Below, one piece after another: positions 6,336 to 14,083 of a stretch of DNA of 64,000 nt. The position numbers and the translations under genes are program-made. Source of the stretch: Xanthobacteraceae bacterium (GTDB lineage Bacteria; Pseudomonadota; Alphaproteobacteria; Rhizobiales; Xanthobacteraceae); the NCBI GenBank assembly GCA_022841625.1, contig JALHRD010000011.1, positions 62,001-126,000 on the forward strand, written 5' to 3'. The notes beneath the pieces were generated by a model. It made no database searches, had not been told where the DNA came from, and saw only the letters and a program-made list of their open reading frames with translations. Position 1 is the stretch's first letter, and every line of letters starts with the position of its first letter.

Positions 6336-7271
6336 ATGGCCGATCTTCCCGCCCATATGCGCCCGGAGCGGTCGTTTCAGGGTTTGATTCTGGCGCTTCA
6401 GCGCTATTGGGCGGACTATGGCTGCGTCATTCTCCAGCCCTATGACATGGAGGTCGGCGCCGGCACCTTCCACCCCGCCACCACATTGCGCGCGCTCGGG
6501 CCCAAGCCGTGGAATGCCGCCTATGTCCAGCCGTCGCGCCGCCCCAAGGACGGCCGCTATGGCGAGAACCCCAACCGGCTGCAGCACTATTACCAGTTCC
6601 AGGTGATCCTGAAGCCAAACCCGCCGGACCTTCAGGAACTCTATCTGAAGTCGCTTTACGCCATCGGCATCGACCCGGCGCTGCACGATATCCGCTTTGT
6701 CGAGGACGACTGGGAATCGCCGACGCTCGGCGCCTGGGGGCTTGGCTGGGAGTGCTGGTGCGACGGCATGGAAGTGTCGCAGTTCACTTATTTCCAGCAG
6801 GTCGCGGGTTTCGAATGCGCGCCGGTCTCGGGCGAACTGACCTATGGGCTTGAGCGGCTGGCGATGTATGTGCAGGGCGTCGAACGGGTCTACGATCTCA
6901 ATTTCAATGGCCGCGACGGTGCGCAGAAGGTCAGCTATGGCGACGTGTTCCTGCAGGCCGAACAGGAATATTCGCGGCACAATTTCGAGCATGCCGACAC
7001 CGACATGCTGTTCGAACAGTTCAAGATGGCGGAGGCTGCGTGCCGGAAATATCTGGCGGCTGGCTGGAGCACGGAAAGCGAAGTGAAGCGCCACTTGATG
7101 GCGCTGCCCGCCTATGACCAGTGCATCAAGGCAAGCCATGTGTTCAATCTGCTCGATGCGCGCGGCGTGATCTCGGTGACCGAGCGACAGAGTTATATCT
7201 TGCGCGTGCGCGAACTCGCCAAGGCTTGCGGCGAGGCGTGGCTTGCGACCGAAGCGGGAGGACTGGCATGA
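6336..7271 (+). CDS. glyQ: Glycine--tRNA ligase alpha subunit
   Basis: This is the catalytic alpha subunit (311 aa) of the bacterial alpha2-beta2 glycyl-tRNA synthetase, which activates glycine with ATP. Family hallmarks are [18 protein letters not shown] near the start, the block [19 protein letters not shown], and [20 protein letters not shown] around residues 130-150. Start at 6336 ([16 protein letters not shown]) gives the usual length. The stop overlaps the CDGSH gene start (ATGA), so the two are translationally coupled. glyS follows. Confidence 0.97.
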
Positions 7272-7594: not shown

Positions 7595-9793
7595 ATGCCC
7601 GACCTTCTGATCGAACTGTTCTCCGAGGAAATTCCGGCGCGCATGCAGCCGCGTGCGGCCGAGGATCTGCGCAAGCTCGTCACCGACAGACTGGTTGCCG
7701 CGGGCCTGGTTTATGAAGGCGCCAAGGCCTTCGCGACGCCGCGGCGGCTGGCGCTCACCGTGCAGGGCGTGCCGGCGCGGCAACCCGACGTGAAGGAGGA
7801 GCGCAAGGGTCCGCGCGTCGGCGCGCCGGCCGGCGCGATCGGCGGCTTTCTCAAGGCGGCCGGGCTTGCCTCCATCGATCAAGCCACGGTGCAGCCGGAC
7901 AAGAAAGGCGATTTCTATGTCGCGGTGATCGACAAGAAGGGCCGCGCGGCGATCGACGTGATCGGCGAAATCGTGCCGGAGGTGGTGCGAAATTTTCCCT
8001 GGCCGAAGGCAATGCGCTGGGGCGAGGCCAAGCCCGGCGCGCTGTCCTGGGTGCGGCCGCTGCATGCGATGATCGCGACCTTTGGGCCCGACACCGAGGA
8101 GCCCGAGATCGTTCGATTTGAAATCGGTGGCATTGCGTCCGGCGACGCGACCCGCGGCCATCGCTTTCTGGCGCCGGAGCCGATCAAGGTTCGCCGCTTC
8201 GACGACTATGTCGCCAAGCTCGAAAAAGCCAAGGTCGTGCTCGATCCGGAGCGGCGCAAACACATCATTTTGACCGAGGCGCGCACGCTTGCCTTTGCGC
8301 AGGGTTTCGAACTGGTCGAGGATGAAGGGCTGCTCACCGAGGTCGCCGGCCTGGTGGAATGGCCGGTGGTGCTGATGGGGGCGTTCGACGCCGCGTTCCT
8401 CGCGATCCCCGCCGAGGTGATCCGCGCCACCATCCGCAACAACCAGAAATGCTTTGTGCTGCGCGATCCGCAGGCCGCCAAGCTGGTCAATCGCTTCATC
8501 CTGGTCGCCAACACCGAGGCCAAGGATGGCGGCAAGGCGATTGTCGCCGGCAATGAGCGCGTCATCCGCGCGCGGCTCTCCGATGCCAAGTTCTTCTACG
8601 ACACCGACCTCAAGGTGAAGCTTGAAGACCGGCTCGACAAGTTCAAGGGCATCGTATTTCACGAGAAACTGGGCACCCAGGCCGATCGCATTGCGCGCAT
8701 TGAAAAATTGGCGGCGGAACTGGCGCCGATGGTCGGCGCCGACAAAGCCAAAGCCCAGCGCGCCGCGCGGCTTTGCAAGGCCGATCTGTTGACCGAAATG
8801 GTCGGCGAATTCCCCGAAGTGCAAGGGCTGATGGGCCGCTACTACGCCGAGGCGCAGGGCGAGGACGAAGCGGTCGCCCACGCCATCGAGGATCACTACA
8901 AGCCGCAGGGCCCGACCGATCTGGTGCCGGCCGACCCGGTGTCGATCGCGGTCGCGCTCGCCGACAAGCTCGATATGCTGGTGGGATTTTGGGCCCAGGA
9001 TGATAAGCCGACGAGTAGTAGAGATCCTTACGGACTGCGTCGTGCGGCGTTGGGAGCAATTCGAATAGTTTTGGACAATCAGCTTCGCTTGCAGCTCCGG
9101 ACTATCTTCGTCCAAGAATTGAGCCACCATTTAGTTCAGAGAGCGATGCCGGACGACAAATGGCCAGTAGGGCACAGAGAGCTTTCTGTGATTCACCAAG
9201 GTGCTCAATTGCGAGAGCTAGTTGCCAAAGAACTATTGGAGTTCTTCGCCGACCGTCTCAAGGTCCAACTCCGTGAGCAGGGCGCGCGCTACGATCTCGT
9301 TGATGCTGTCTTCGCCCTGGAGCGGCAGGACGATGTTCTTCTTATCGTTCATCGGGTCAATGCCTTGGGAAACTTCCTCAACACCGAAGATGGCGTCAAT
9401 CTTTTGGCAGGCTATCGGCGAGCTGCAAATATTTTGAAGATAGAAGAGCGAAAGGACGGTGAAGGTGCATTCAATGAGCCGGCGAATCCGGAACTCATGT
9501 CGCATCCGCTAGAACGTCATTTATGGAACACCATCCAATCGACGCGCGATGAAGTGCTGGACCACGTCAGTTTGGCAGAGGAGCGCATCGGACGACCTGG
9601 GTTTGAGGATCAAAAACCCTTTGAAGAGGCGATGGAATCGCTATCCACGCTACGCACCGCCGTGGACGCATTCTTTGAGGAGGTGACGGTCAATGTCGAC
9701 GAAAAGCCGATCCGCGAGAATCGGCTGCGGCTGCTCAACGAAATCCGAGCCGCCACCCGCGCGGTTGCCGATTTTTCATGCATCGAGGGTTAG
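7595..9793 (+). CDS. glyS: Glycine--tRNA ligase beta subunit, with a low-GC 3' segment
   Basis: This is the tRNA-binding beta subunit (732 aa) of glycyl-tRNA synthetase. It starts [19 protein letters not shown], the classic GlyS N-terminus, and holds EEIPARM, an HD-like region and a C-terminal anticodon-binding segment ([19 protein letters not shown]). I chose ATG 7595 over the 5' extension from 7523, which is not conserved. From about 9000 to 9660 (residues 468-690) GC falls sharply and codon choice turns AT-tolerant, yet the frame is intact; 9061-9120 is about 45% GC by hand count, against about 65% around it. A small hairpin CCCTCC-agg-GGAGGG (7557-7571) lies in the leader. Confidence 0.95.
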
Positions 9794-13072: not shown

Positions 13073-14083
13073 TTAAAGTTCTGTCTCAAAGAACCGCTGC
13101 ACCTTTTCGAATTCAATAATGTCGTAACCGAATATGGAGCTAAGAGGACGACGAGATGCCCCGATCAAGCCCCTCTTGAACATTAACTCCAACGGATCCG
13201 ATACAATTTGTTTTCGATTGCGCATGGAACTCAGGGACATTGCTTGCTCGCTACCTTCTGGCGATATGTTGAAGAACTTTAGTTCGTGGGGGCCACTAAC
13301 TGCACGATTAATTGCATCGTTTATGTGCTCGTCGCGAAAACCGTACCCAATGATCATGAGCCGCGTATTGGGCTGCCGAAGAAAGCAATCAAATTTTTTC
13401 GAATACCAATCCAATATCGGATGTAGCTGGATTTCTGCAGGCTTATTGCCGCCAACTATCATTAGCTGATCGTCACGAGCATCGCTCCAATTTGATGACC
13501 CATGCAGTTTAAACAACGGCTGAGCTCCATCCTTAATCGTGAACGCTTCTGCGTTTGCGGGTGCCCATTTGTCGAGCGCCCACTTTTGATACCCATAAGA
13601 CTCCGAATGTGGGCGCATACCAGGTAGATCGTGCCATCTCCAATGTCGAAGGGGCGCTGGTCCTTCGGCAAGATTCGTTGTCAAATAATGACGCTCCAGC
13701 AATAGGTCCTGGTTGAGCGTGAAGATCGCGTCGAATTTCGACAGGAACGTAACTATGTTTCTCTCAAAATTTGTCGGTCTAAAATGAAATTGAAACCTAG
13801 GTTCTAAAAACGCACGATTCATGTCGTCGAACATTGTCGACACGCTGTTCTGAAATGCGTCAAGCTCGGCCTTGTGCCTAGTCGGTTCGCTTCGAAAAGA
13901 ATTTTGAACTTCCGCAAGAGCAGCTTCGAAGCCTCCCGAAGACTGATGCTTCCACAATAGGTCTCTGAGCGTTGCATTGTTTCTAATTGCAGGACATCCA
14001 AGGAGATATTCGAAAGCTTCCGCTCCAAGCCACCCTCCCCAATTTTTGCTGAATCCTGCGCCCAGAAGCAGCAGATAATTCAT
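13073..14083 (-). CDS. Stand-alone SIR2-like domain protein, candidate NAD-consuming defence effector
   Basis: This 336-aa product has the SIR2 signature. A nucleotide loop LLLGAGFSKNWGG is at residues 5-17. The catalytic Asn-Asp region is FTLNQDLLLE (N124, D126), the catalytic His lies in LFKLHGSSNW (H194), and the SIR2_2 block GYGFRDEHINDAI is at 246-258. Such proteins hydrolyse NAD in antiphage systems (ThsA, DSR, SIR2-HerA, pAgo-SIR2) and are distinct from lysine deacylases. Base composition is close to 50% GC, well below the neighbours, so recent acquisition is likely. No partner ATPase, Argonaute or sensor gene lies beside it; ppdK and the arsenic operon flank it. Biochemistry is inferred from motifs; a defence role is a hypothesis. 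Confidence 0.75.
   Translation of the reverse strand: MNYLLLLGAGFSKNWGGWLGAEAFEYLLGCPAIRNNATLRDLLWKHQSSGGFEAALAEVQNSFRSEPTRHKAELDAFQNSVSTMFDDMNRAFLEPRFQFHFRPTNFERNIVTFLSKFDAIFTLNQDLLLERHYLTTNLAEGPAPLRHWRWHDLPGMRPHSESYGYQKWALDKWAPANAEAFTIKDGAQPLFKLHGSSNWSDARDDQLMIVGGNKPAEIQLHPILDWYSKKFDCFLRQPNTRLMIIGYGFRDEHINDAINRAVSGPHELKFFNISPEGSEQAMSLSSMRNRKQIVSDPLELMFKRGLIGASRRPLSSIFGYDIIEFEKVQRFFETEL

Follow-up and report, generated by a model that had tools for sequence, protein, structure and literature searches.

The glyS locus and its product

The window analysed here is a stretch of 64,000 nucleotides from a 152 kb contig (JALHRD010000011.1) of a Xanthobacteraceae bacterium (assembly GCA_022841625.1), and the features discussed below lie within or beside its glyS gene (Table 1). 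In profile searches the glyS product is recognised as the beta subunit of glycyl-tRNA synthetase (GlyRS), scoring 747.1 bits against TIGR00211 (cut-off 300) and 630 bits against PF02092 (cut-off 29.2), with the C terminus falling just below the cut-off of the DALR-type anticodon-binding domain PF05746 (21.6 bits; cut-off 22.3). The reading frame is open over its full length and is the sole match to PF02092 in the genome (one copy). The predicted structure is confident (pLDDT 91.5), less so at residues 511–540 (block means 73, 54 and 66), and finds its structural counterparts in E. coli GlyRS beta (7yse, chain C, Z 32.9) and in plastid GlyRS, its fold resembling the anticodon domains of both GlyRS and ArgRS (1f7u, Z 9.6). 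Neighbouring glyQ is most similar to its counterparts in two genomes of the same genus (G001, 94%; G003, 93%; partial alignments), followed by L016 at 93% over the full length. Elsewhere in the window, an open reading frame (ORF) directly after ppdK (13073–14083, minus strand, GC 47–52%) starts with MNYLLLLGAGFSKNWGGWLG, a motif that we take to resemble a SIR2-type protein; this ORF is perhaps part of a defence island.

Table 1. Features of the glyS region, with positions in the window.
Feature	Position	Strand	Basis
glyQ, GlyRS alpha subunit	6336..7271	+	Best identity to same-genus G001/G003
glyS, GlyRS beta subunit, 732 aa	7595..9793	+	TIGR00211, PF02092, model match to 7yse chain C
AT-richer tract, codons 464–692	8984..9670	+	Changepoint, codon shuffles, segment GC, informative sites
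Acceptor-stem loop, residues 470–480, counterpart of E. coli H18-19	9002..9034	+	Alignment
Exchange slot 1, about residues 481–560, HD domain	9035..9274	+	Homology with identity trough of close relative pairs
Linker, residues 505–545	9107..9229	+	Linker family in G000 and G267 only (2/266 family genomes searched)
R609 and N612, counterparts of E. coli R585 and N588 (anticodon-loop contact)	9419..9430	+	Alignment
Exchange slot 2, HLW-type block of anticodon-binding domain, residues 623–692	9461..9670	+	Profile, trees, triplets, identity troughs
Diagnostic HLW motif, residues 633–650	9491..9544	+	Alignment and three-copy profile
13-codon insertion, residues 659–671, between two anticodon-domain helices	9569..9607	+	Alignment, model
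C-terminal 40 residues, host type again, with F694, V697 and V699	9671..9790	+	Identity, triplets

A step in base composition inside glyS

An initial annotation of this DNA described a fall in GC within glyS from about 65% to about 50%, with recovery near position 9660, and both segment GC and a GC3 changepoint confirm it: GC is 65.2% (GC3 82.7%) over residues 1–463, 50–55% (GC3 49–58%) over residues 464–692, and 58.3% (GC3 72.5%) over residues 693–732. Within the AT-richer tract GC3 is lowest at residues 464–545 (48.8%) and stands at 57–58% over residues 546–692, and the reported 45% GC at 9061–9120 proved exact on recount. The best two-breakpoint model of GC3 places the drop at codons 464–686 (8984–9652; lnL gain 29.9), and not one of 10,000 codon-order shuffles equalled it. 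Ranked against ORFs of its own genome (taken from the window and 20 contig-start stretches of 20 kb), the drop is second of 127 when measured over 225 codons and eighth of 252 when measured over 100; a low-GC3 tract of such length is rare in this genome, a shorter drop of equal depth less so. As to the change in codon choice that had also been claimed, comparison of residues 468–692 with the rest of the gene upholds it for AGT (3 versus 0) and AGA (3 versus 1), and adds CTA (5 versus 0), TTA (2 versus 0) and TTG (10 versus 3). CTT is higher per codon (2.2% versus 1.0%) but equal in count (5 versus 5), and the GAA detail is weak, because 4.4% versus 3.6% amounts to no clear enrichment. An ORF on contig C10 of this genome (L167:4762–6786, minus strand) has a larger internal GC3 drop than glyS, of -33 points over codons about 50–275 of 674.

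A divergent anticodon-domain allele and its discordant history

Among the relatives searched first, 28 of 31 genomes had a match. Residues 1–467 are nearest to G001 and G003, at 79–91% identity by segment, and the last 40 residues are again 90% identical to G001; residues 611–692 are only 18–41% identical to 26 of the 27 aligned relatives and 54% identical to the other, G002. We name this divergent form of the anticodon domain HLW, after a motif common to its copies (ELM..P.E.HLW.TIQST, then SLSTLR). Its amino-acid signal in the window runs to about residue 692–695, and in the model the block covers helices 638–663 and most of 673–696, with an insertion at 659–671 that the window sequence alone carries among those aligned. 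A profile built from three HLW copies and run on 391 genomes of the family matched 363, five of which (G002, G178, G000, G671 and G054, from genera g1, g36 and g48) scored 131–158 bits, the next best reaching 86. The genome of the window is 99.99% complete with 0.58% contamination, the HLW allele occurs without internal stops in separately listed genomes, and a chimeric assembly is a very unlikely source of the glyS mosaic.

The two halves of the gene tell different histories. In a tree of the N-terminal half (50 rows, quick method) the window groups with L007 and L009 (SH-aLRT 97) and L015 with L008 (100), and L066 and L119 lie inside g36, where standard-type L138 is the sister of L119. By contrast, in a tree of the anticodon-domain segment, built on only 68 columns with long branches (51 rows), the five HLW rows form one clade (100/100), set apart from standard alleles by a branch of 2.0, with a long branch to the window itself (1.39). 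Approximately unbiased (AU) tests on the N-terminal half reject both a clade of HLW rows (p 7.6e-05) and a pairing of the window with L015 (p 3e-04); on the C-terminal segment they reject the window with L007/L009 at p 0.033, a modest result for so short a segment with long branches. Nine triplet comparisons, not independent of one another, all show the balance of residue sharing reversed between the N-terminal half and residues 625–692 (Fisher p 5e-08 to 4e-15) and restored past residue 693. Mapped on the N-half tree (49 rows), HLW requires four changes for four carriers, the fifth, G054, being a partial gene that lacks the N-half and is absent from this count. The claim in the initial annotation that a diverged allele had replaced part of the gene by homologous recombination is thus supported by a significant conflict between segments, and its statement that frame and conserved motifs cross both borders holds, with an open frame and conserved anchors on either side. 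The combination named in that annotation as refuting replacement, close relatives with the same step and congruent trees for both segments, is not observed: G002 shares the composition step but its trees disagree, and the step is missing in the sisters G001 and G003.

The extent of any single import is less simple. At residues 546–610 the few informative amino acids of the window are even or host-leaning (4:4, 5:2, 5:1 and 5:0) despite low GC3, which disfavours one uninterrupted imported tract; in G002 the corresponding residues favour HLW (3:7 and 4:11). Fast evolution adds to the divergence of the window's HLW block, since it is 57–61% identical to two other copies and its branch is long.

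Two slots of exchange in relatives

Identity mapped in 20-codon steps along 24 chosen pairs of glyS revealed that most pairs with different linkers are 80–100% identical over much of the gene and 24–50% identical at residues 501–540, identity being largely regained from about residue 561. Three pairs with L066 or L119, the carriers from g36, show a second trough at residues 621–700, with 73–92% identity between the troughs (92, 85 and 85 for L119 against L145), so that the two slots are separate in these genes. For G002 (comparison of L008 with L015) and for the window (comparison with L007), identity is lowered right through both slots, and a single longer exchanged tract is possible in each. 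A further trough at residues 341–400 in the pairs L148/L150 and L043/L074, with an insertion in L008 near residue 381, suggests a third variable place in glyS, also in the HD domain. As a control, the lowest identity over 25 codons, with gaps counted as mismatches, was compared between glyS and ppdK in 34 pairs, the ppdK sequences coming partly from cut-off loci: the median was 0.53 for ppdK versus 0.00 for glyS, and values below 0.5 occurred in 33 of 34 pairs for glyS, all near the linker, versus 14 of 34 for ppdK.

The linker in slot 1 varies from 3 to 140 aa among 103 distinct glyS genes, a sample that is not random, many having entered it because they best matched the window segment or the HLW profile, or because they were picked from near-complete genomes. 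L052 and L146 belong to the same genome; one was removed here, whereas both are counted in the 104-row figures given below and in the comparison that yields the 97–98% cases. With four rows lacking a full N-half and ten with linkers below 15 aa left out, 77 genes have a nearest relative whose N-half identity reaches 80%, and 57 of these carry a linker unrelated to that relative's, in some cases at N-half amino-acid identities of 97–98%; at identities of at least 95% linkers are unrelated in 8 of 17 (p 0.036). The median difference in GC3 between linker and gene is -26.6 points for unrelated linkers versus -4.8 for shared ones (p 2.4e-05), and 40 of the 89 linkers of at least 15 aa lie more than 20 GC3 points below their gene. 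Newly arrived linkers are AT-rich. The five HLW carriers have longer linkers (41, 65, 71, 127 and 140 residues) than the other genes (n=98, median 38; p 0.0075), which, from five carriers in all, is a hint only.

Several linkers recur across genera. That of the window is 60% identical to one in G267, of another genus, over 52 aa including conserved flank (21 of 41 residues in the linker itself, counted by eye), and further families join G002 with G116, G671 with G210 and G004 with G666 (loci chosen for long open frames were used only for finding such families, not for rates). Eleven linker rows from ten genomes (e.g. L146 and L044) share a peptide read from a palindromic repeat, and four such REP-type linkers fold into strong hairpins (-0.43 to -0.49 kcal/mol per nt). 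Searched with blast, a 93-base copy gives 58 matches for G181 (L194) and 45 for the genome of the window (L195), counts in which both strands of one place often appear; one copy is read in frame within the G181 glyS, and on our reading of its ends the repeat would belong to the CGTC class. The window linker was itself considered as an intragenic REP or Rickettsia palindromic element and rejected, as it folds at -0.30 kcal/mol per nt, lacks long perfect arms and represents a protein family found once in G000; a Pfam search of its 41 aa for an intein, homing-type or other domain gave no match.

A family of 140 aa occurs in glyS of seven genomes from six genera (L206, L201, L207, L199, L204, L119 and L147), with GC3 of 44–57% versus 81–90% for the genes. 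Its members are all AT-rich despite differing by 32–75%, and for this reason low GC may be maintained and not merely recent. A seven-row profile of the family matched 7 of 20 chosen genomes, once each and always at the known glyS places; an earlier two-row profile matched none of 269 genomes of the order, an uninformative result as known carriers were not among the genomes seen in its output. Five of the seven members were scanned against Pfam and gave nothing over cut-off or better than E 0.08, and the family has one weak match to a phage family (phrog_19809, E 0.0033) and none in PADLOC, plasmids, phages or viral contigs (the last scanned by a conserved-flank pattern). A single, moderately confident model of the domain (pLDDT 70.6) had no match in the PDB at E <0.001. 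On a partial contig of G054 (L120:517–1605, minus strand), a 127-aa linker within glyS bears an RPD...ELK motif and weak matches to nucleases (PDDEXK_3, E 0.0026, below cut-off; PDC-M15A, 8e-05; Cas4, 0.026); no other linker tested had a nuclease match.

Origin of the mosaic

The window glyS is a mosaic that shares its linker and its anticodon-domain block with other genera, and we consider it probable, at about 0.85, that both were imported by homologous recombination, the same slots having been exchanged in relatives across the order. Codons 1–463 and 693–732 would be the lineage's own, and at least the HD-domain linker and the HLW-type block (about 623–692) would have been brought in by recombination anchored on conserved stretches; the imported DNA perhaps spans all of codons 464–692, in one tract or two. 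On this view glyS acts as a cassette-accepting gene, both of its slots being used repeatedly. The source was presumably an unsampled, less GC-rich lineage. No donor-type genome was found among 391 family genomes, 385 class genomes, viral contigs, plasmids and phages: the HLW profile matched 268 of the class genomes, the window alone exceeding 81 bits; no HLW-type block was found in viral contigs; and tblastn of the C-terminal 265 aa against plasmids and phages returned glyS copies all below 60% identity. A contig scan with residues 513–692 found four loci, two from Parvibaculum and one from an Alphaproteobacterium at 50–67% and one from Rhizobiales at 44%, and residues 611–692 alone matched 28 of 297 genomes of the order, the best besides the window being G178.

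Two explanations dispense with import. HLW might be an old polymorphism of the family, passed on vertically in few lineages and lost elsewhere, as its deep divergence from standard alleles and the differences among its copies would allow; however, since just five of the 363 genomes with a match carry it, the allele would have had to be lost a great many times, its block has sharp edges in comparisons with close g36 relatives, and low GC3 stops at residue 692 with the last 40 residues at host level, all of which leaves this history very improbable. Slightly less credible still is that the C-terminal half simply evolved fast and drifted towards AT under relaxed or positive selection: the long branch, the acceptor-stem loop substitutions seen in almost no other row, the private 13-residue insertion and the host-leaning residues at 546–610 fit such a course, but the window linker is common to G267, and many HLW residues are identical in four other genomes (three genera in all), so many that convergence is very unlikely.

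Why the slots are exchanged

Granted import by recombination, its cause is a separate matter. Even odds seem right for the view that slot 1 is a permissive surface loop in which frame-keeping DNA survives and from which homologous recombination spreads the results without selection. The group of linkers formed by a palindromic repeat that is multi-copy in G181 and in the window's genome agrees with this, as does the near absence of Pfam matches among linkers, and intragenic REPs, including some in tRNA synthetase genes, are described in PMC3733652. Against it stands the pace of replacement, documented above by the 57 of 77 unrelated linkers, together with the several linkers that are homologous protein families across genera and the milder troughs in ppdK of the same genomes. 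To selection that repeatedly favours a new surface, as a defence for instance against some phage or toxin factor binding to the beta subunit, we would give about one chance in three. A stronger version is more speculative and on balance unlikely: alphaproteobacterial glyS might be a dedicated cassette-exchange locus whose linker and block are under recurrent selection for novelty, and whose exchangeable, partly enzyme-like domains (the nuclease-like linker and the 140-aa family) would act against phages or competitors and leave translation untouched. It is more doubtful again that elements of homing or nuclease type insert themselves in frame at slot 1, cut empty alleles and co-convert the flanks, with short linkers as their remnants; the flanks are indeed exchanged along with the linker, and the G054 linker has its PD...ELK motif and weak nuclease matches, but the other linkers tested have none, that of the window (41 aa) matches nothing, and slot 2 would need a cause of its own.

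tRNA contacts and function of the mosaic enzyme

In PMC9908026 the anticodon contacts of E. coli GlyRS are given as R585, N588, F652, V655, V657 and M658, N588 touching A37, a neighbour of the anticodon. Their counterparts by alignment in the window are R609, N612, F694, V697, V699 and N700. The first five, taken as the set that contacts C35 and C36 of the anticodon, keep the E. coli residues (position 609 is R in 104 of 104 rows and 612 is N in 100 of 104), and N700, although different from M658, is the usual residue in relatives (101 of 104 rows). As these residues are conserved and sit at or beyond the edges of the HLW block, the block probably alters the scaffold and not the residues that read the anticodon; the earlier suggestion of altered tRNA specificity or drug response is not supported. 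The acceptor-stem loop is unusual: in place of EKPTGSKDPYA it has a sequence that contains TSSRD, in which S474 is found in one of 103 sequences, the other 102 having G. In E. coli the corresponding loop H18-19 grips the acceptor stem of the tRNA through backbone contacts, according to PMC9908026. With fold, frame and anticodon contacts kept, and as the sole glyS found in the genome, the mosaic enzyme most likely still charges tRNA-Gly.

Significance and comparison with known systems

Informational genes that are essential are normally regarded as stable markers, whereas here a synthetase subunit swaps unrelated segments between genera at fixed places, and such repeated swapping is unusual for an essential enzyme. 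Among the matches listed in the open-licence literature there is no published account of exchange at glyS. If selection drives the swapping, GlyRS would be a target in a conflict without description among those open-licence papers; if it does not, glyS illustrates the extent of foreign sequence that an essential enzyme can accommodate. In either case trees inferred from whole glyS may be misleading for this group, and the slot offers a natural laboratory for domain insertion.

Mosaic genes formed by homologous recombination with divergent alleles, such as mosaic penA, are a known class, which glyS resembles in its sharp borders, preserved frame, discordant trees and foreign composition. It differs in being an essential cytoplasmic enzyme without known drug selection, and in that two fixed slots are reused across genera, one of them swapping unrelated protein segments and not just alleles. 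With E. coli GlyS, the beta subunit of the heterotetrameric GlyRS (7yse, 7eiv), the window's GlyS shares the fold, the HD domain, the all-helical anticodon domain and the contact residues; the hypervariable linker in the HD domain, the HLW-type block and the TSSRD of the acceptor-stem loop set it apart. PMC3733652 covers CGTC-tagged repeats in alphaproteobacteria as well as REPs within some tRNA synthetase genes, and REPs in glyS may already be listed in its supplement; one linker group (L146, L044) is likewise an in-frame palindromic repeat, comparable with the intragenic REP/CGTC palindromes and Rickettsia palindromic elements treated there. Unlike these, the window linker is no long palindrome and its protein family occurs once in the genome, and most linkers are not such repeats. 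Finally, the mosaic evolution that PMC12175518 reports for outer-membrane proteins of E. coli is close in kind to the exchange at glyS, recombination acting locally on defined stretches of conserved proteins in both, although those proteins are exposed at the surface whereas GlyS is intracellular.
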